Source: a virus. Taken from it: a stretch of 48,340 bases of DNA. The position numbers and the translations under genes were made by a program. The notes below the pieces were generated by a model that saw only the letters and a list, made by a program, of their open reading frames with translations, was not told where the DNA came from and made no database searches. Of this stretch, positions 32,052 through 43,984 are shown piece by piece. The stretch covers positions 1-48,340 of IMG/VR virus record IMGVR_UViG_3300025110_000024; one strand, written 5' to 3'. Numbering within the stretch: the first letter of the stretch is position 1; each line of letters opens with the position of its first letter.

Positions 32052-35000
32052 ATGGCTATAAATCCATATGGAGTAGTTAAGCAAATTGAAGAGCAGGTTG
32101 CTCAAGAAGGGCAACAACAACAGCAATTCTCCCCATCTCTTGATGAAAATCAAACTAGACAATTAATAGAAGGCTTTAAAGCTAATCCTAACAGTTTTTC
32201 AGAGCAATCTAAGGCTCAATTAGAGCAGCATGCTAGTTATCATCAAATTCCTTTTTATCCAGGCGATTTTAATTTTGGAGAAGCTATTATGCAATTCGGT
32301 AAAGGATTTGCTAGTGGCTTTACTACCTTAGAGACTGGAGACCATCCTGATAATGAATATGAAAATATAGCTAGGAGCCTTGGTCATTTAGTTGGGTTTG
32401 CCCCTGGAATAATGGCAACTCCATTAAAAATGCTAGGATTAGCAGGAACAGCAGCTAGAGTAGCTAAGGTTAAGTCTGTTCCTCTATGGTTAGCTGGTAA
32501 AGCTACTAAAAAAGCTAAAAAAATAGTAGGACCTGCTATAGAACAAGCTGCAAAGGGTAGGGCAGGAGCCACTCAAACTGCTGCTCAGTTTCTTACAAGA
32601 GGCCCTGTAAAACACATAGCTGAAGGTGCATTTAATTTAGGTCTTGCTAGTGGTATATCTGCTTGGCAAGGAGGAGTAGATGCTATAATGTCAAGTGCTG
32701 GTCATGGAGCAGTATTTGGTGGTGTTTTTAGAGGTTTAGGTAATGTTGTTCAAACAGGAGATAAAGCCGCAGATAAAACAATAAGAGCTATTGCAGGTTC
32801 TGTTTTTCAAGGATTACCATCTACAATGAGAGGGGCTACTTCAGCAGAACAGGTTTATGAGTACTTATTAGGTGCCTATTTTGGCTCTCATGAGGTTCCT
32901 TGGCATAAGCATAGAGCAGGTAGATTCATGAGAGATATGCAGAAAGAATCTGTAAATAATGCCGAACTTGAATTTACAAGAGACCCAAATTTAATGGGCA
33001 AGAGGTACGCAAAAGAAGAGCAAGTCGTTAAAGATGAGATTGATAACCAAATAGGTAAAGTTATGGACCCTCAGCTTAGAAGAGCTAGAGGGCACTTCTT
33101 ATTAATGGAATTAAAGAGGCTTGGGGTTGATTTAACAGGGAAAATTACAAAAGAAGGTGATGTTACTAAAGAAGGTTGGGAGCTTTTAAATGAAATCAAT
33201 AAAGGAAATCTAGATAAAGCTCAAGAAACAATGCCTGAGCTAGAACACTCTCCTGAGGGAACTAAAGTAGACCCTGCAGAAACAAGAATAGTGCAAAAAG
33301 TTAGACAATTAGACTTAGATATTGCAAAGAATGAACGAAAATTAAGTATATTAGAGAAAAATCTAGAGACTGAAAAGAAAAAAGGTGACACTATAGTTAC
33401 TGAATATGCTTCTGATGAGATTCCTAAAATAAAGGATAATATACTTACTCTACAAAAAGAACGGATAAAGATACTAGATGCGGCTAAAAGTGTTAGTGAG
33501 GTACTAGGAGAGCAAATAGAGTTAGACTTTGAGTCTGAACCTAATTCTTCAGGCTCTAGTAATAGAATAGTGGGGTGGAGAGCTCAACAATTTGCAGAGA
33601 AACATCTTAGAAAGATATGGGATTTACCTGAGTTTGAATCAGATATTAAAGCAGACTTAAAAACATTAACAGCAAATGAAGTAGCAGGTATATTTCAAAA
33701 GCATATAAGCAGAGGAAAAGAGCCTAATACAGAAGCGTTAATGGAAGAGTTAAATTCTAGGTATAAAACAGGGTTTAAGGACGAAATAAAGGGTGAGATA
33801 AGGCAATGGCTAACTAAACTAAATCATGGCCAAAAACAGCGATTTTTAAGAATAGTTTACGACCCATTAAAAACAGAAGAAGATGTAGAAACTGGTGGAT
33901 TAAGAACTATACAAGAGGAAAAAATTGAAATATCAGATATGCCAGAGTCAGGACAGACTGCTGGTGGTAATAGAAAAATCTCTATAGAGCCTCCTAAGGT
34001 AATAGAGGAGATATACTATAAAGACGGAGGGAAGCCAGAGACGGTAGGTAAGGGTAAAAACAAAAGAGTAGTCTCCCCTATATTTACATTTAATGATATC
34101 TCTGTAAAAGACGAAGCTACTGGCTCTTATAAGGACATGAAACTATCTAGGTTAAGAGAAACAGATAAAAATTCATACGAAAAGATTATTAGAGAAGTTA
34201 CTAAATCGATGGAAAAGAAAAAGTTCTATCTATTTGGAGGTAGAGGTGATGCAGATAAGCTTATTTTTGTTAAATATCATCCTCACACAAAGAAGCATAA
34301 GTTAAGAGATACTTTAAATAAAGTTATGAAAGGTAAGAAAGATATATTTAACTACTCTAGAGATATGTTTATAGAACAAAATCCTGATATATCAAGACCA
34401 AAAGCAATGGCTATGCATAGAAGGGCATTTACATCTAATGTTTTATATGATTTAGGTATGAATGGATTAGAGTATACTCCTAAAAATTTAGAGAAAATTT
34501 GGCATGATAATGGCTTTCTAGCTAATTCATTAGCTTTTAATAAGAGAGCTCAAATTATGTTTACCCCTTCATGGTCAGGTAGTCCTGAAGCAGCTATATC
34601 TTATTTTGGAAAGAAAGGGTTGAATGACAAGAATTTCTTAGGTAAAAAAGGCCAGGAAAAGAATAAGCTTAGATATATTTTAATAGATGACCTAGGAGAC
34701 CTTCCTGAGGGATTGCATCCAGAAAAACTAACTAACTATGACGCTACTTTTTATGGTGAGATTATGGATGGTGCTATTATAGGGACTAATAGAGCAGTTG
34801 ATTATAATAATATTGATGGGGGACATGTAAAATCAGGTCAAAATAAAGCATTTATAGTATCCCCTCATGCAGAAAATGGAGCTTTATTAGGTAAGTTTAT
34901 GTTTCATAATGCTGGAGATAAACTTTCTGCAGCTATGGAAAAAGCAGGGATTCATTATATAATACCAAAATCTGCAGCTAAACAATTGGGATTAAGAGAG

Positions 35001-38000
35001 ATTACGAAGATAAAATTAGGCAGAACTAAATTAAATTTAGAAGATGCCTCTATATATGATTTAGACCCTTCTCATATTAAATATAATTATACAGTTAAAA
35101 ATACAGAGAGTATGATTACTCACTTATCTAGAATCCCAAAACAATGGTTTAGTGCTTTAAACTCTAGAGTTCCTACAAAACCAGTCCCTACAGATATTAT
35201 AGAAGATATATTTAACGAAACTATATATAAGAAATATAAAGGTGATGAAAAATGGAATGCTAAGTTAAAGGACTACATGGAGAATCCTGAGTCTAAAAAG
35301 GAAGCAGAACTGTTAAATAATATTGAAAAGATTGGTATTAATGATTTGCTTGAAGTAATTAACTCTAATGAAGGTACAGCGTTTGCTGATGGAGCATATC
35401 AAAAATTACTAAGACTAAATAAAGAAATTGCTTATGAAAATGCTAAAGAAGATGGTATAAGAGCTGAAGATTTAAATGAATATATTACTGAAATAGAAGA
35501 TTTTAATACTGTAACTGATAGACTTATAAGGGAAAGTATACCATTAGCTAAAGGGAAGGACAGAAAAGGCTCTGTTTTATTTGCTCATAAATGGGTTAGA
35601 CCATATAGAATACAGGTAATGAGAAATTATATAATATCCCAAATTACTAAACCTAAAATAGGTAATTCGGGTGCAGCTAGAATGAGGCCTTATGACTTAG
35701 CTATGCAAGTTGATTTCGATAACTATAATAAGAATTTAAAGTTACTCAATAAGAGAGACGATATATTTTTCCTAGATACAGACTACAGAGCGATGAAGAT
35801 AAATACGCACCTTAATTTAAAAGAAAAGACTTTAGGTGAAGTATGGGATGCTTATGAAGCTGGTAAGTATAAAGGAATGGAGAAAGAAATTCAAGAAGTG
35901 TTTAGAGCTATGGTTATTAGGGTTCCTATGGATTCAATATCTGGAGCTCACGCACTTAATTTTATGGGATTTACAGGAAGATATGGACATGGAGTACTAG
36001 TTCATCCTAGAAGCATGAGAGCACTAGGTGGTGCTGACCTTGATGGTGATGAGGCTTTTATTTATTTTGGTGGAAGAGATGGGGCTGGTGCAGGTAGTGG
36101 AATGAAAAAATCTTGGAAAGACGTATTTGAATCTAATAAAAACGAGTTTGTTAGTTATGTAGGTAACAAGCCTGTTAAATTCAAATGGAATCCAGAGACA
36201 AAGAAAAAAGATATACCTGTTTACGAGTATAAGAATAAAGATGAATATGATAAATTGTCTAAAAAAGATAAGGAAAAATACTCTGAATACATACCTGACC
36301 CTAAAAAAACAGCTGTAAGTCATCCTGAAGGCAAGTATAAAGATAAATCTATGGCATGGCTTTTAACTCAAAATGAAAATGCTGAGTCTAGAATGATGTC
36401 AGAAGAGAAAGTTTTAATGTATTCACCTTCTGTAAGAAGAGAAGTGTCAGAAAGAACAGTTGAAGGTCGCAACCTGCTAGGAGGAGTAGCGACTATGACT
36501 AAGACTATGAAAAATGCTCACGACATAATGTCTAATGTAGGTGAGGAAGCTATAGTATTTGAGAGACAGAAAAATAAAAAAAAGGAAGTATATGAAGTCT
36601 TAATAAAACCTAGGCAAGAAAAAGAGTGGTTAGATTACGCTAGGAGACTATCAACATCTATGGTTGCTTTTTCTGCAGACCCTATGGACTCAGCAGGATT
36701 AAAACCTTTATCTAAGTATATGAGGGAATTGTATGATGCTTATTTTAAAATAGACGGCATAAGAAGGATAAAAGCTGATGGTTCTGTAGGGGAATGGAAG
36801 CCTATGGATAATAACTATTTTTATACAAAATTTAGGCCATTTAGCAAGACGCATGGATTCCTTCAAAGTGAATCAGACCAAGTTTGGAAGCTTAGAAAAG
36901 GTATTGTAAAGCATTTTGGAGAGTTAAATAATGCTATGTTCAGTAAAAATTGGCAAATGAATAGAGCTCATAGTGAGCAAGAGATTCGAGATAAGTTAGA
37001 ATTTTTAGGAGATTACACTAATAATGAGTCTGACTATACAAATATACTAGCTAAACAAGCTCGACTGTTAAAAGGAACAGATAGGTGGAGCGATAATATC
37101 TTAAATAAGATTGATATAAAAGAGCTAACTTCTCTTTATCAAACGATGAACAAGCTCGCTAAGCAATTTAAAATGCAGTATGGTAGTGGGTGGGTAGAAA
37201 AGGTTTGGGGGAGAGGTACTTTTACTATAACTCAAAATCAATTTGTAGATATGGTTCTAAATCCTAAATGGAAAGCTTATGAGGATGGAGATAGAGCAGC
37301 TAATGTTCAAAAAGGAGAAGTTGAAGGCAGACGATTTGGAAGAGAGGCTGTTGCTAACTACTATTTTGAAGAATTTGTAAAAGATTTAAACTATATACCT
37401 GAAGCATTTAGAAGAAAATGGCAGACTAAATATGGTAATATGAAAAATAAAGAGAGAAAAAAGGATACAGCTCTCATTGATTTTAAAAGAGCAGTAAAAG
37501 AAGGAAAGTTTACTCAACAGGAAAGAGTTGAAATGATGGAGGATATCTTAAAGGAAACAGAAGATTATATCGTAACTAACGACATTCATGATATGGTTTC
37601 TTTAAAGCTAATGTCTAACCATATTACAAAACATAGAGATGTTTTAACAGATGATATTATCTCTGAGTTACACTCAAAAGCTCAAGAGCTGAAAGATAAA
37701 AGCTATTTAAATGCAAAAGAAAGGAATGATTTATCTAGACATTTTGAAGAGGAAAATTATTTAAATAAAGATGTCGAAGAAGGTGGTCAATTCATTAAGG
37801 ATAAACAGATAGAGAGAGGTGAAAGAAGAGCTGAAGAAGAGGGTTCTGCTAAAATGGACCAAGCATCAATAGATGCAGAGATAAAAGCATTTAAAAAAGG
37901 TCGGTCTGTTCAAGAACAAAGATTATTTGATTATTTTATGTTAGGGTCTTATAACAGAGCTAGAAGAGACAAGAAAACCTTTGTAAAAGAGGAGATGAGA

Positions 38001-41000
38001 AAAAGAAAGGAGACAAAGCGAGATGCAAACACTATAAGAAGGTATGAAACTATGTGGTATAATACTTCTGGTGCAAGAACATCTATGGTAAAATTAGGGT
38101 TCTCATCTACTGCAATACCTTCTCAATCTATAAAAGCATTTTTAAAAGAGTATATGAACTTAACCACTAAAACCTTTAAAGCTTCAGAGAAGAAAAGTCA
38201 ATTAAAGCTTACAAAAGAGCAGTGGGAAACAGCTCAAAAATTAGATGAAATGAAAGTGGAATATGAAAAATCTGAAGTCCCTTTTATTGAGAAGCCTGTT
38301 CCAAAAGAAATATCTGAATCTTATGTAGGAGATATGGATACCTATGAAGGTTTAGTAGAAGGCAAGCTACCTAAAGACCAAGCAAAAGTAATTACAGAAT
38401 TAGCTGAAAATATACACTATATGCATAACAAAGAGGGTTTAAACTTAAACCATATAACTGCATCTATAATGGGTAAGCCTCTAAATGAGATGGATAAACA
38501 AGATTATATTGCTTTAAATGAGTTCTTGAAAGATATAAGAAAAGGCTCTATATGGCAAAGACTATTTAATGAAGATTCTCCAGATATGAAGGCAAGATAC
38601 TGGACGTTATTTCCTAAAGCAGTAAATAAAGAAATGATGAAATATGATGTCCTTTGGCTTAAAAAAGAAGGTTGGTTTAAAAGGAAGGGTAAAGAAGTGT
38701 TCGGTACTGTCGCAAAGCCTACTTGGTGGTTAGAGGGAATGCAAGATTGGATTAGTCGTATGGGTGAAAAAGCTATTGATTTAGGGGACAGGTTAAAGTC
38801 TAAGACATCATTTAAATTGGCTCCTTTTGTTGAGAATACAGTTAATGGTGAATTATTACGTCAATTTGCTATTAGGTCTATGGAGAGAGATTTAAAATAT
38901 AAAGTATTGACAGAAAAAAGCTCTGGAAAAAGCTTAGGACAAAGACAGACTCAATCTAGCGAATATGAAGTTAGATATAATGAAATGGCTAAAAACCCTG
39001 AAGTCCAGGATGCTTTAAAGAAGACATATAGTGTCACTTTTTTACAAGATGGAAAACCTGTTAGGAAAAAACTTACAGGAGAAGAAATAAAGACTCATAT
39101 CATGAAAGTCTATAAAAGCATGAATAAAGAAATTTTTGAGATTATTGGTGGAAAAAAAGGTGCTATGGGTAGATATCATTTAAAAGATAAGAAGGATAAG
39201 TTAAAATTTCATAACAATGATATCGAAGAGCCTATGCTAGATTGGAGATTATTTATTAAAGATATGACATCTTTGTATAAACAAGGTAAAGACATCCCTA
39301 CTAGTTATGGAATAGATGGCCTTAGGCAAGTGGCTCGTTCTATGATGATAGATTTAAAGCTTCAGGAAGTTGCAGATATTAAAAATAAATTAAGAAGCTT
39401 ATCTAAAAAGGGAGCTAAGAATTTTACAGAAGAAGAGAAGACATTTGTTCGCTACTCAGCTACAAATATAAAGAGATTGGGTGAAATGGTTAAGCGTATG
39501 TCAGAAAATAAGATAGCGAAAACAGGAGTATATGATTTTGGTACCTATTTTCCTCATATGTTTCATAGCAAGGCGGCAGCAAGAGAGTCTATTAATAGGC
39601 AATTAGAGGCAATAGAAAAAAGCGATTTAAGTGAAGAAGGTAAACAGCTTGAACGAAAAAAGATAATGATGAAATTGCACAATCTAACAGGCGACTGGAT
39701 GGATGTTAACTCTAACGAAATGTGGGATAAGTATGATAAAATAGCTCAAGAGATTATAGAGGGAAGAGAAAATAAAAAAGAGGTAATAAAGTGGACTGAG
39801 CTAAACAATATGTCCCCTAATATGAAATCTAGAACATCTCATCTTCCTGGCTGGTCTATTGACCATGGCTCTTATGAAATATATGCTACAAATATTGCTA
39901 ACACATACTTTAATCAGTTAAGTCAGATATTTACCAGAGGAATGATAAATGAATTTTCAAAAAGAGGAAAGAAAAAGGGTTGGGATAAAGTAAGGTTTGG
40001 TGATGGCAGTAAAATGACATTACTTCAAAAGTGGGAGAATTACTTAAAACTATATGCTCAAGATGCTATGGGTAATCCATCTGTTATCCCTGACTATGTA
40101 TATAATGACCCAGGTATGAAAGTTTCAGCTACTCCATATGGATGGTGGGCTGACAATAGGGTTAAAAAACGAATGCAAAAAATCAAAAATATGATTGTTA
40201 AGGACCCTACAAAATATGAAAATCTAAATGAGCTAATGAATGAAATACCATATTCTACATTAAATAGAATATCTAATCTTGAAGCAAAGTTTGAACTAGC
40301 GTCTCTCTTAGCTCATCCAAAATCAGCCGTAGGTAACGTATTTGGAGGAAGTCTTCATACTTTGCAGAGTGCTGGTTATCAAAATTGGAAACAAGGAACA
40401 GACATAAAATGGCTACAGAGGATAAATCCTGAATGGAAATCTAAAGACGATATACAAAAGTTTATTATAAAACACGGAGTTATCCCTGACTTTATGATGC
40501 ACGAATGGGGATTAAACCCCGAAGTTATAAAGCGTGGTAAAACTGAATTTATGACGGATGTCGTTAAACAGATGAAAGAGGGCCAGATAGATGCAAAAAC
40601 ATTTAAAAGTTTAACTGAAAAACATGAGTTAAGTAAAAGCATGATGAATATAGCTTCTCAATTCATGTCTAAACCAGAGATGATGCTTAGAAGACATGCT
40701 TTTATGGCTCACTATGTCCAGGCTTGGAAGAGATTTGATGGAGCTATAGACAATATAAACCATCCTTTCTTAATAGAACAGGCAAAAGCAGGTGTAAAAG
40801 CTACTCAATTCCTTTATTCTGCACCTTTCAGACCAGCATTTGCGAGAACAGCTCTTGGCAAAATTATGACTCGTTTCCAACTATGGCAATGGAATGCAGC
40901 AAGATTTAGAAATGATGTTAGAAAAGAAGCTGCTATCTTTGGATTACAAGAAGGTACTCCAGCATTTGAAAAATTCAAAAGAACGCTTCAGTTAGACATG

Positions 41001-41423
41001 TTTGTCTTTGCACTAGCTAACGTGTTTATGTATTCTATTTTTGAAACAGCATTACCAGCACCTTGGAATTGGCTACAAGATTCAGCTGATTGGGTATTTG
41101 GTGATGAAAAGGAAAGAGAAAGAACATTTATGGGTACATGGCCTGCAAATATAGCTCCTTTACAGCTAGTAACTCCTCCTATAGCTAGACTTCCTGTAGC
41201 TGGATTAGATTCATTTATAGCTAATGATTGGGAGAGGTTTTCAAACTACCATATATACACAATGTTTCCATTTGGAAGGGTAATAAAAGATGTTTCCCCT
41301 TGGGCTAAAAACAATCTAATGGAGAATCCAATGATGGCTATTGATAAGTTCTCAGGATTCCCAATGTATGGTATAAGCAGAATGGCTAAAGATTTAAAGA
41401 AAGAGGGAGTCTATAAGCCGTAA
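32052..41423 (+). CDS. giant multidomain virion protein with two-barrel RNA polymerase domain, 3123 aa
   Basis: Residues ~1290-1335 contain R1290-V-P, then H1318-P, then GGADLDGDEAF with D1329, D1331 and D1333. Order and spacing match the E. coli RpoC block (R425-A-P, H450-P, NADFDGD at 458-464), including the three Mg-binding Asp. Upstream, ~900-960 holds DGAII and DGGHVKSGQNKAF (K927, K932) and LLGKF (K948), a plausible first barrel with catalytic lysines (inference). The first ~230 residues include Gly/Ala-rich hydrophobic segments, suited to passage through membranes. The C-terminal ~500 residues are helical with AlaPheArgPro-rich stretches. It ends the ejection cassette. Giant virion RNA polymerases with this DxDGD motif are known in crAss-like phages, where they enter with the DNA and transcribe early genes. 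Confidence 0.85.
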   Translation: MAINPYGVVKQIEEQVAQEGQQQQQFSPSLDENQTRQLIEGFKANPNSFSEQSKAQLEQHASYHQIPFYPGDFNFGEAIMQFGKGFASGFTTLETGDHPDNEYENIARSLGHLVGFAPGIMATPLKMLGLAGTAARVAKVKSVPLWLAGKATKKAKKIVGPAIEQAAKGRAGATQTAAQFLTRGPVKHIAEGAFNLGLASGISAWQGGVDAIMSSAGHGAVFGGVFRGLGNVVQTGDKAADKTIRAIAGSVFQGLPSTMRGATSAEQVYEYLLGAYFGSHEVPWHKHRAGRFMRDMQKESVNNAELEFTRDPNLMGKRYAKEEQVVKDEIDNQIGKVMDPQLRRARGHFLLMELKRLGVDLTGKITKEGDVTKEGWELLNEINKGNLDKAQETMPELEHSPEGTKVDPAETRIVQKVRQLDLDIAKNERKLSILEKNLETEKKKGDTIVTEYASDEIPKIKDNILTLQKERIKILDAAKSVSEVLGEQIELDFESEPNSSGSSNRIVGWRAQQFAEKHLRKIWDLPEFESDIKADLKTLTANEVAGIFQKHISRGKEPNTEALMEELNSRYKTGFKDEIKGEIRQWLTKLNHGQKQRFLRIVYDPLKTEEDVETGGLRTIQEEKIEISDMPESGQTAGGNRKISIEPPKVIEEIYYKDGGKPETVGKGKNKRVVSPIFTFNDISVKDEATGSYKDMKLSRLRETDKNSYEKIIREVTKSMEKKKFYLFGGRGDADKLIFVKYHPHTKKHKLRDTLNKVMKGKKDIFNYSRDMFIEQNPDISRPKAMAMHRRAFTSNVLYDLGMNGLEYTPKNLEKIWHDNGFLANSLAFNKRAQIMFTPSWSGSPEAAISYFGKKGLNDKNFLGKKGQEKNKLRYILIDDLGDLPEGLHPEKLTNYDATFYGEIMDGAIIGTNRAVDYNNIDGGHVKSGQNKAFIVSPHAENGALLGKFMFHNAGDKLSAAMEKAGIHYIIPKSAAKQLGLREITKIKLGRTKLNLEDASIYDLDPSHIKYNYTVKNTESMITHLSRIPKQWFSALNSRVPTKPVPTDIIEDIFNETIYKKYKGDEKWNAKLKDYMENPESKKEAELLNNIEKIGINDLLEVINSNEGTAFADGAYQKLLRLNKEIAYENAKEDGIRAEDLNEYITEIEDFNTVTDRLIRESIPLAKGKDRKGSVLFAHKWVRPYRIQVMRNYIISQITKPKIGNSGAARMRPYDLAMQVDFDNYNKNLKLLNKRDDIFFLDTDYRAMKINTHLNLKEKTLGEVWDAYEAGKYKGMEKEIQEVFRAMVIRVPMDSISGAHALNFMGFTGRYGHGVLVHPRSMRALGGADLDGDEAFIYFGGRDGAGAGSGMKKSWKDVFESNKNEFVSYVGNKPVKFKWNPETKKKDIPVYEYKNKDEYDKLSKKDKEKYSEYIPDPKKTAVSHPEGKYKDKSMAWLLTQNENAESRMMSEEKVLMYSPSVRREVSERTVEGRNLLGGVATMTKTMKNAHDIMSNVGEEAIVFERQKNKKKEVYEVLIKPRQEKEWLDYARRLSTSMVAFSADPMDSAGLKPLSKYMRELYDAYFKIDGIRRIKADGSVGEWKPMDNNYFYTKFRPFSKTHGFLQSESDQVWKLRKGIVKHFGELNNAMFSKNWQMNRAHSEQEIRDKLEFLGDYTNNESDYTNILAKQARLLKGTDRWSDNILNKIDIKELTSLYQTMNKLAKQFKMQYGSGWVEKVWGRGTFTITQNQFVDMVLNPKWKAYEDGDRAANVQKGEVEGRRFGREAVANYYFEEFVKDLNYIPEAFRRKWQTKYGNMKNKERKKDTALIDFKRAVKEGKFTQQERVEMMEDILKETEDYIVTNDIHDMVSLKLMSNHITKHRDVLTDDIISELHSKAQELKDKSYLNAKERNDLSRHFEEENYLNKDVEEGGQFIKDKQIERGERRAEEEGSAKMDQASIDAEIKAFKKGRSVQEQRLFDYFMLGSYNRARRDKKTFVKEEMRKRKETKRDANTIRRYETMWYNTSGARTSMVKLGFSSTAIPSQSIKAFLKEYMNLTTKTFKASEKKSQLKLTKEQWETAQKLDEMKVEYEKSEVPFIEKPVPKEISESYVGDMDTYEGLVEGKLPKDQAKVITELAENIHYMHNKEGLNLNHITASIMGKPLNEMDKQDYIALNEFLKDIRKGSIWQRLFNEDSPDMKARYWTLFPKAVNKEMMKYDVLWLKKEGWFKRKGKEVFGTVAKPTWWLEGMQDWISRMGEKAIDLGDRLKSKTSFKLAPFVENTVNGELLRQFAIRSMERDLKYKVLTEKSSGKSLGQRQTQSSEYEVRYNEMAKNPEVQDALKKTYSVTFLQDGKPVRKKLTGEEIKTHIMKVYKSMNKEIFEIIGGKKGAMGRYHLKDKKDKLKFHNNDIEEPMLDWRLFIKDMTSLYKQGKDIPTSYGIDGLRQVARSMMIDLKLQEVADIKNKLRSLSKKGAKNFTEEEKTFVRYSATNIKRLGEMVKRMSENKIAKTGVYDFGTYFPHMFHSKAAARESINRQLEAIEKSDLSEEGKQLERKKIMMKLHNLTGDWMDVNSNEMWDKYDKIAQEIIEGRENKKEVIKWTELNNMSPNMKSRTSHLPGWSIDHGSYEIYATNIANTYFNQLSQIFTRGMINEFSKRGKKKGWDKVRFGDGSKMTLLQKWENYLKLYAQDAMGNPSVIPDYVYNDPGMKVSATPYGWWADNRVKKRMQKIKNMIVKDPTKYENLNELMNEIPYSTLNRISNLEAKFELASLLAHPKSAVGNVFGGSLHTLQSAGYQNWKQGTDIKWLQRINPEWKSKDDIQKFIIKHGVIPDFMMHEWGLNPEVIKRGKTEFMTDVVKQMKEGQIDAKTFKSLTEKHELSKSMMNIASQFMSKPEMMLRRHAFMAHYVQAWKRFDGAIDNINHPFLIEQAKAGVKATQFLYSAPFRPAFARTALGKIMTRFQLWQWNAARFRNDVRKEAAIFGLQEGTPAFEKFKRTLQLDMFVFALANVFMYSIFETALPAPWNWLQDSADWVFGDEKERERTFMGTWPANIAPLQLVTPPIARLPVAGLDSFIANDWERFSNYHIYTMFPFGRVIKDVSPWAKNNLMENPMMAIDKFSGFPMYGISRMAKDLKKEGVYKP

Positions 41424-42632: not shown

Positions 42633-42728
42633 TCAATTCTCTGCATACCCGCAGGTATTACATTGATAATGACAATCTTGTACATATACTAATTGTCCAC
42701 ATGCAAAACAATTTCTAGTTTCTATCAT
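42633..42728 (-). CDS. mini zinc-ribbon protein, 31 aa
   Basis: It reads MIETRNCFACGQLVYVQDCH and on to CNTCGYAEN. C7-x2-C10 and C23-x2-C26 form a complete zinc ribbon with little else, plus C19/H20. The ribosome site is weak. It starts the small-gene operon right next to the structured RNA and crosses a + strand promoter-like site. Confidence 0.5.
   Translation of the reverse strand: MIETRNCFACGQLVYVQDCHYQCNTCGYAEN
42663..42690 (+). promoter_or_regulatory. putative + strand promoter of the structured RNA
   Basis: TTGATA (42663-42668), a 16-nt spacer and TATACT (42685-42690) predict a start near 42697, about 65 nt before the first helix at 42761. The spacing equals that of the other promoter-like pairs in the window. 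It is antisense to the zinc-ribbon gene. Confidence 0.45.
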
Positions 42729-42760
42729 AGGACTTAGAATTTAATACTTCTGAGCATATA

Positions 42761-43319
42761 TAGCAAGTACAAAAGTTAGGTTTTAAAGGACAGAAAGGAT
42801 GAGATATGAAAGGGAGAATACCCTATAAATCTCTATGTACCGCCCCACCAGTGCTCACACAGTAGGATTCCTAACTTTTATAAGGTGGTTATCATGCACC
42901 CTGTACTTGCTAATCTATAGAAAAGCTTTTTTCTCATTCTATGGTAGTGCTTGCAAATAATTTACGATGCAAGTTCCTGGAATAAACTTAGTGTAACTTC
43001 TCAGGACTGCCATAGCTCTAGCTACATACTTTTCTAATTTAATTGGGAAGTATCTTTTCGACGAGATATTCTTCTAATAGTTCAATTTAGATATAATCAG
43101 TTAACTTAACTTTACCATTAGTCTAGCATTACTTCCCAAATCTTCGGGCAGAGTAAAGAGAGTGTGTCACGAGGAGTGTGACGGCTGACTCTGCCCTAAT
43201 TTATAGTAAGGTTTAATAGCAAAGCAGAGGTTAATTACCTAGGACCCCTGAACCGTACTATCTTGACCGATACGGAGCTTCATTATTTAACGTGTACCGC
43301 TCCCGTCGTACCTTACTAA
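42761..43319 (+). ncRNA. candidate large ornate non-coding RNA (~560-620 nt)
   Basis: This gene-free segment is packed with long helices. 42761-42780 pairs with 42870-42879 and 42903-42912 (two perfect 10-bp halves split by a hairpin arm). A nested hairpin lies at 42801-42833. 42939-42947/43007-43015 closes a three-way junction holding 42950-42955/42968-42973 and 42975-42979/43002-43006. 43043-43052/43130-43139 is a perfect 10-bp stem. 43146-43154/43188-43196 (9 bp) encloses 43166-43170/43178-43182. 43204-43212/43310-43318 is another 9 bp. Wobbles such as U42945-G43009, G42949-U42974 and U43165-G43183 pair only in the + RNA; one weak helix (a228-c247) argues the other way. Size and style recall the ROOL/GOLLD-type giant RNAs of phages, but no family consensus could be checked. 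Confidence 0.7.
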
Positions 43320-43323
43320 TTAT

Positions 43324-43740
43324 TTAAAACATTTCTGATTTCGCTAACTTCCTTAGGACATATTTTACAACATCTTCAGGTAATTTACTAAGACTTTTTA
43401 ACAATTCTTCATAATCTTTATGAGTCAATGGACCCTTCCTAGTATTACATCGACCACATACTATGTGAAGGTTCTTAATAATGCTACCACCACCCATACT
43501 AAGAGGGATGATATGGTCACAAGCCATATTGCTGACAACCAAAGTCTCATTGCAATATACGCACGGTCTCCCATAAGATTTATAAAGTAACTGTCTAAGC
43601 TCTGTAAGCGATACTTTAAATTCGACTTCATATTCTCTACTCCTTCTTTTTAAAGACGATTTTAATGTCGAAGATTTCTTCATCATTCTATGGTAAATCT
43701 TTTTAGAATGATTCTTATGTATTGGAAGGAGCTTTTTCAT
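43324..43740 (-). CDS. HNH endonuclease, 138 aa
   Basis: The start at 43740 has a GGGAGGGG site, better than the longer in-frame start at 43812, which overlaps the upstream gene. The C-terminal half carries the HNH motif CVYCNETLVVSNMACDHIIP, then GCGRCN-type CGRCN, and the N-terminus is very basic. It is a free-standing HNH enzyme (homing, nicking or packaging-related). It abuts the structured RNA but has no RuvC or other IscB parts. Confidence 0.85.
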   Translation of the reverse strand: MKKLLPIHKNHSKKIYHRMMKKSSTLKSSLKRRSREYEVEFKVSLTELRQLLYKSYGRPCVYCNETLVVSNMACDHIIPLSMGGGSIIKNLHIVCGRCNTRKGPLTHKDYEELLKSLSKLPEDVVKYVLRKLAKSEMF

Positions 43741-43774
43741 ATAAAGCCCCTCCCAATTCACTTGCTGTTTTCTC

Positions 43775-43984
43775 CTATTTCTTTTCGATTTGGTATTCTG
43801 CATGTTTCCCATTTGGATTAAGGTTAACTATATCATAAGCTTTTCCTTTGTATCCATTCCTTAATGTGTGTATTATTGCACCTAATCTCATTGTATGGTA
43901 GCTTCGATAAGCTTCCATTGGAGTCAACTTAAGTCCACTAAGCAGATGCCTCAGGACCCGTTTCGTCTTTGATTCTCTTGACAT
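43775..43984 (-). CDS. helix-turn-helix DNA-binding protein, 69 aa
   Basis: Start at 43984 after GAGG. The pattern HLLSGLKLTPMEAYRSYHTM RLGAIIHTLRNGYKG is the phage-type winged helix-turn-helix (HTH_39-like: 'LTxxEAxxxYxxxRLxxxIxxLRxxG'). A probable transcription or replication regulator. Overlaps the gene before by 47 nt. Confidence 0.75.
   Translation of the reverse strand: MSRESKTKRVLRHLLSGLKLTPMEAYRSYHTMRLGAIIHTLRNGYKGKAYDIVNLNPNGKHAEYQIEKK

Follow-up and report, generated by a model that had tools for sequence, protein, structure and literature searches.

The window analysed here spans 48,340 bases and is a whole phage record of IMG/VR. We interpret a gap in its right arm as an array of five small genes for structured RNAs in tandem, lying on the minus strand in a leftward operon with replication genes and predicted to act in trans. 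We put the probability of this reading at roughly one half (0.52). An earlier note on this DNA had proposed a new structured phage RNA in the same place. The segment is indeed noncoding and covarying, and to this extent the proposal stands; the giant ornate molecule on the plus strand that it had in mind does not. It is known that phages carry occasional structured RNAs. What is new here is that there are many small ones, that they are swapped in the manner of cassettes and that none of them is in Rfam.

The record encodes an SU10-type major capsid protein and a large terminase, and its right arm reads leftward. Upstream of the gap lie genes for a ThiF-like protein, a Sak4-like protein, a 205-aa protein, a primase/helicase, two small proteins and an HNH endonuclease, the last of which (43324-43812, minus strand) is immediately upstream of the array. 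The first gene downstream is a zinc-ribbon-like ORF of 31 aa with a CxxC...CxxC pattern (42633-42728, minus strand), which is kept in relatives and is followed by more small genes. The 595 nt between the HNH gene and this ORF (42729-43323) hold no plausible gene, which bears out the earlier observation of more than 550 nt without genes. Relative to five relatives, the indels in the gap are mostly not multiples of three, and its substitutions between the window and the relative L003 have no codon periodicity. Hence, both indel lengths and substitution pattern are noncoding, and conserved protein-coding content was not found. Two other parts of the window deserve mention. A second gene-free segment, at about 604-1000, separates a leftward from a rightward gene and includes at 655-835 a near-perfect multi-branched fold (z -11.6 on the plus strand, -9.8 on the minus strand), parts of which are conserved in the relatives G006, G005 and G003; it may be a further structured RNA or a cruciform of the origin type. 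Positions 32052-41423 form a single ORF of 3123 aa, which has no Pfam match and shares about 32% identity with its counterparts in the more distant relatives.

The gap is made of five discrete modules, M1 to M5, all given here on the minus strand, each with its own closing stem and separated from the next by A/U-rich linkers such as AUUAAAUUAG. M1 (43204..43318, 115 nt) has a 9-bp closing stem (43310-43318/43204-43212) and two internal arms, and folds with z -2.36 on the minus strand and -1.33 on the plus strand. It is represented by two sequences only, those of the window and L003, which are 96% identical, and covariation support is limited to M2-M5. M2 (43146..43196, 51 nt) consists of a 9-bp stem GGGCAGAGU/ACUCUGCCC (43146-43154/43188-43196) that carries a hairpin GUCAC/GUGAC, whose C-rich loop, ACUCCUC, is conserved. 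Its covariation score is 0.217 against 0.085 in shuffled alignments (8 sequences). That the loop resembles an anti-Shine-Dalgarno sequence is only an idea. M3 (43043..43139, 97 nt) has a closing stem UUGGGAAGUA/UACUUCCCAA (43043-43052/43130-43139), a variable arm and, near its 3' side, a conserved hairpin AUCU-CGUCGAAA-AGAU. Copies of M3 were counted only if the closing stem was present, because the bare hairpin ATCTCGTCGAAAAGAT occurs by chance in unrelated sequences. In the 12 sequences, two pairs of the closing stem change on both sides and a third goes from U-A to U-G, so that the covariation of M3 is weaker than that of M2, M4 and M5.

M5 (42761..42912, 152 nt) comprises the helices P1 UAGCAAGUACA/UGUACUUGCUA and P2 AAAGUUAGG/CCUAACUUU, a small hairpin with a GUGA loop, a variable arm and an invariant 3' strand CCUUUAAAACCUAACUUUUGUACUUGCUA. 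The perfect helix of 11 bp at 42761-42771/42902-42912 lies within it, as does the one at 42768-42780/42870-42882 (92% over 13 nt), which has one strand in common with the former. The long helices of the earlier note, including the two that share a strand, are thus present where it had placed them. The two long outer helices of M5 show no variation except C-G to U-G, and since they barely vary it is from the inner arms that covariation support comes (11 sequences; 0.186, compared with 0.099 after shuffling and no more than 0.061 after sliding). Apart from M3 in L035, neither M3 nor M5 extends beyond close relatives.

M4 (42913..43038, 126 nt) contains the predicted helices P1 (43029-43036/42918-42925), P2 (43010-43018/42936-42944), P3 (43002-43005/42976-42979) and P4 (42968-42973/42950-42955, an arm of variable length), together with a pseudoknot (43020-43026/42992-42998) that covaries. 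The three-way junction seen earlier in this DNA is real and corresponds to this module. A first search with the 38-nt core gave 18 contigs, and a second with the 3' strand only gave 38 stretches; in total, M4 occurs in 38 IMG/VR contigs besides the window, from deeply diverged phages, and two copies lie on one contig (L120, L122). In the first alignment the core was invariant because it had served as the search string. The search by the 3' pattern removed this bias and, because it did not require the core, brought the covariation of the pseudoknot to light. In the resulting alignment of 35 copies, 92.2% of the cells are paired, 185 cells show double changes against 65 in shuffles, and the covariation score is 0.349 against 0.125 when shuffled and at most 0.069 with the partners slid. 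Double-sided changes affect 18 pairs, among which are four of the seven of the pseudoknot. The alignment supports P1, P2, P4, whose length varies greatly, and the pseudoknot; P3 is invariant and hence silent on covariation, and the pairs 31-33/168-170 find no covariation support among the 35 copies. All sequences that have the pseudoknot (columns 13-19 against 41-47) keep it paired (100%), as GUAACU/AGUUAC, GCAACU/AGUUGC, GCUAACU/AGUUAGC or CUGACU/AGUCAG, with the exchanges U-A/G-C, G-C/C-G and U-A/C-G. The covariation in homologues that the earlier note had suggested looking for thus exceeds shuffled and slid controls in M4 and M5, and shuffled controls in M2. These alignments show M2-M5 to be conserved as base-paired structures on the strand of the genes.

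Where they can be compared, the primases of phages bearing M4 are mostly about 25-29% identical to that of the window. Across these phages the core of M4 is kept almost letter for letter, and so strong a constraint among divergent phages implies a specific function. As judged from its alignment, M4 is a class of RNA with a pseudoknotted core and an arm of variable length, common to deeply diverged phages. Two exact patterns, that of the core and that of the 3' strand, are absent from GTDB genomes, and so no host or prophage was found by this route. The covariance model of M4 and the alignments provide a handle for finding hosts, transcripts and targets.

On which strand are these RNAs encoded? 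The whole segment folds better than its shuffles on both strands, with z -4.08 on minus and -2.48 on plus. Taken singly, M1, M2, M3 and M5 fold better on the minus strand and M4 on the plus strand, and energy alone therefore leaves the strand undecided. Wobble pairs in the alignments of M2, M3, M4 and M5 are more telling: read on the minus strand, the proposed pairs include 70 G-U against 8 A-C, counts that the plus reading would invert. From these comparative counts the strand of the predicted structured RNAs is minus, sense to the flanking genes, which contradicts the earlier assignment to the plus strand, antisense to them. The promoter-like pair that had been noticed upstream is no excess over chance either, as 4 sites were found where 6.0 +/- 2.5 are expected. 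In L035, a TTGACA/TATAAT look-alike pair is wrongly spaced, and the promoter scan does not call it.

The same counts bear on the idea that the segment works as DNA. Inverted repeats are also features of DNA, and modules that behave as exchangeable cassettes could be sites of recombination or packaging that work as hairpins of folded single-stranded DNA. Yet, only on one strand does G-U take the place of Watson-Crick pairs (70 vs 8), a hallmark of RNA, the pseudoknot covaries and the orientation of the modules follows that of the genes, all of which makes this explanation very unlikely. We find it even harder to credit a single large and ornate plus-strand RNA of about 560 nt, akin to ROOL or GOLLD. 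The folding of the whole segment on this strand is better than shuffled, but it is better still on minus, where the wobble counts also point, and what had been seen as one RNA of some 550 nt is made of five separable modules individually present or absent in relatives. Rfam offers no match to it: at the gathering threshold, Rfam 15, with its ROOL, GOLLD, ARRPOF and HEARO models, gave none in the window or in the relatives scanned. At E<=10 only a chance match to Plastid-rps18 was found in the segment, and at E<=1 there was none in six short M4 loci. With neither a covariance-model match nor one continuous RNA, we reject the ROOL/GOLLD-like identity.

The composition of the array changes from one phage to the next. 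Relatives were collected by a primase scan, and 20 of the 21 have a primase 59-99% identical to that of the window. Among the nearer ones, 375 to 1357 nt separate the HNH gene from the first large ORF downstream. Between M3 and M5 there is a slot that M4 fills in the window; L007 has another module there, with a T-arm-like hairpin, and L026 a short unrelated insert. In L003, L006 and L010 the slot is empty, and the A/U-rich linker between M3 and M4 (43033..43043, minus strand, of the AAUUAAAUUAG type) is identical in sequence to the empty site of L003. An ATTAG repeat flanks filled slots on both sides. M1 is missing from most relatives and is found outside the window only in L003; M2 is missing from L008, L009, L019 and L026. 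In L035, whose terminase is 36% identical to that of the window, M3 and M4 are adjacent as in the window and other modules follow. A structured module, M7, and a gene occupy the same gap in L004, L008, L009 and L019. These comparisons show that the predicted modules are gained, lost and swapped singly between phages at A/U-rich linkers. Two side observations concern these arrays. M7 lies directly upstream of a match to spore photoproduct lyase (PF20903, E 2.6e-25 for L019), for example at L019:12608-13553, and an M7-like RNA was seen by eye in the array of G016, where this gene is lacking. One 52-kb contig (IMGVR_UViG_3300030450_002556; L031/L034) has M3 and the 3' strand of M5 at both ends, with slightly different sequences, and may contain two copies of the array or an imperfect terminal redundancy.

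Such turnover might be that of self-cleaving ribozymes or selfish RNA cassettes which spread at AT-rich linkers and bring the phage no benefit. The gain and loss of modules at linkers with ATTAG repeats on either side, the sharing of M4 by phages with very different primases, the nesting of one hairpin in six different modules and the neighbouring HNH endonuclease would all fit. We nevertheless consider it improbable, since no Rfam ribozyme family matches, the only constant target is an AT-rich linker and the HNH gene, which is present in close relatives while the modules vary, is kept where M4 is absent and is hence not the mobility enzyme of M4.

The modules of the window are part of a larger pool. 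Records of M4-bearing phages have gene-free stretches of up to about 1.2 kb that hold further modules. Among 27 seeds of modules chosen by eye, 18 recur in at least two records, and 13 of these come in addition to M1-M5; because some records are near-identical (G016 and G026), we count about a dozen further recurring classes. In M11 the closing stem changes on both sides, GGGAGUAG/CUGCUUCC against GGGAACAA/UUGUUCCC, while the core is unchanged. One hairpin, CCTCAnGGGCAAGTCCCnTGGACGA, lies embedded in six distinct sequence contexts (L122, L119, L115, L117, L036 and L035), of which that of L122 is the P4 arm of M4, as if sub-domains were swapped too. In G019 a tRNA-Met (CAT) gene follows a gene-free stretch of 735 nt in the same direction (L087:7150-7961). 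A similar tRNA-like sequence, not called by ARAGORN, lies around 4.2 kb in G020. One might speculate that phages draw on an exchangeable repertoire of dozens of new RNA classes, set in arrays and with swappable sub-hairpins, each countering or reprogramming a host function, a possibility that we hold only tentatively. An uncatalogued pool of RNA cassettes exchanged by related phages would mean that phage biology has a hidden layer based on RNA.

How would these RNAs act? M4 is found beside other modules or alone between genes, its gene neighbours are varied and unrelated, and 54 of the 63 ORFs flanking its copies are co-directional with it. Several copies start 0-5 nt behind the upstream stop codon and end shortly before a ribosome-binding site. 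Single copies set so tightly keep a role in cis in play. The modules would then be elements of the mRNA that set its stability, its processing or the expression of a neighbour, in the way of attenuators, riboswitches or nuclease-resistant pseudoknots. Their location on the gene strand agrees with this, and from general knowledge a compact pseudoknot with a three-way junction is reminiscent of nuclease-resistant RNAs. But M4 adjoins many unrelated genes, one gap holds several stacked modules, more than regulating one downstream gene would need, and the conservation of the M4 core exceeds the needs of mere stability. We regard action in cis as rather unlikely, though the most serious of the rivals. 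Action in trans is favoured because there is no fixed neighbour gene, because a gap has several modules and because a tRNA is occasionally nearby. For the tandem array of trans-acting RNAs, we suggest that it is co-transcribed with the operon, having no convincing promoter of its own, that host RNases would cut the unstructured linkers and release the folded units, and that these stable RNAs would act during infection. Their partners might be ribosomes, mRNAs or proteins of host or phage, which they would bind, for example, as decoys or small regulators.

We found no report of such arrays in the literature searched, which covered few subscription papers and preprints. Among named phages, BLAST of the region and of M4 gave no real match, and searches with the major capsid protein and the primase gave distant relatives only. 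Several known systems are nevertheless comparable. HEARO is also a structured RNA adjoining an HNH gene; it differs in that no Rfam match was found here and in that the HNH gene is constant and the modules variable, so that they do not form one unit. GOLLD and ROOL RNAs assemble into homo-oligomeric nanocages. They are structured phage RNAs of unknown function, frequently near tRNA islands (PMC12286853). Unlike the units of about 50-155 nt described here, they are single large RNAs, many GOLLD exceeding 800 nt, and have their own Rfam models. As regards setting, they are the closest precedent.

Phage tRNA arrays consist of small folded RNA genes in tandem, set apart by short AT-rich spacers, and turn over between relatives. 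The tandem layout, the AT-rich spacers and the gain and loss are the same in our array; the folds are different, as ARAGORN finds no tRNA, and thus no cloverleaf, in the array, and the tRNA-Met of G019 is beside modules other than those of the window. The genes for RNA C and RNA D of phage T4 lie within its tRNA cluster. These are late small RNAs, confirmed by Northern blots, of unknown function (PMC9697503). Like them, the RNAs predicted here are small and phage-encoded, and an array can adjoin a tRNA gene (G019). T4 has two, whereas here many recurrent classes occur in shuffled arrays, and with no match in Rfam or in named phages the likeness is one of behaviour only and not of sequence. The role of small phage RNAs is an old question, which becomes testable on many examples together. 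In behaviour, the closest precedent of the array, on our best reading, is the pair of T4 RNAs C and D, of which it would be an expanded version.
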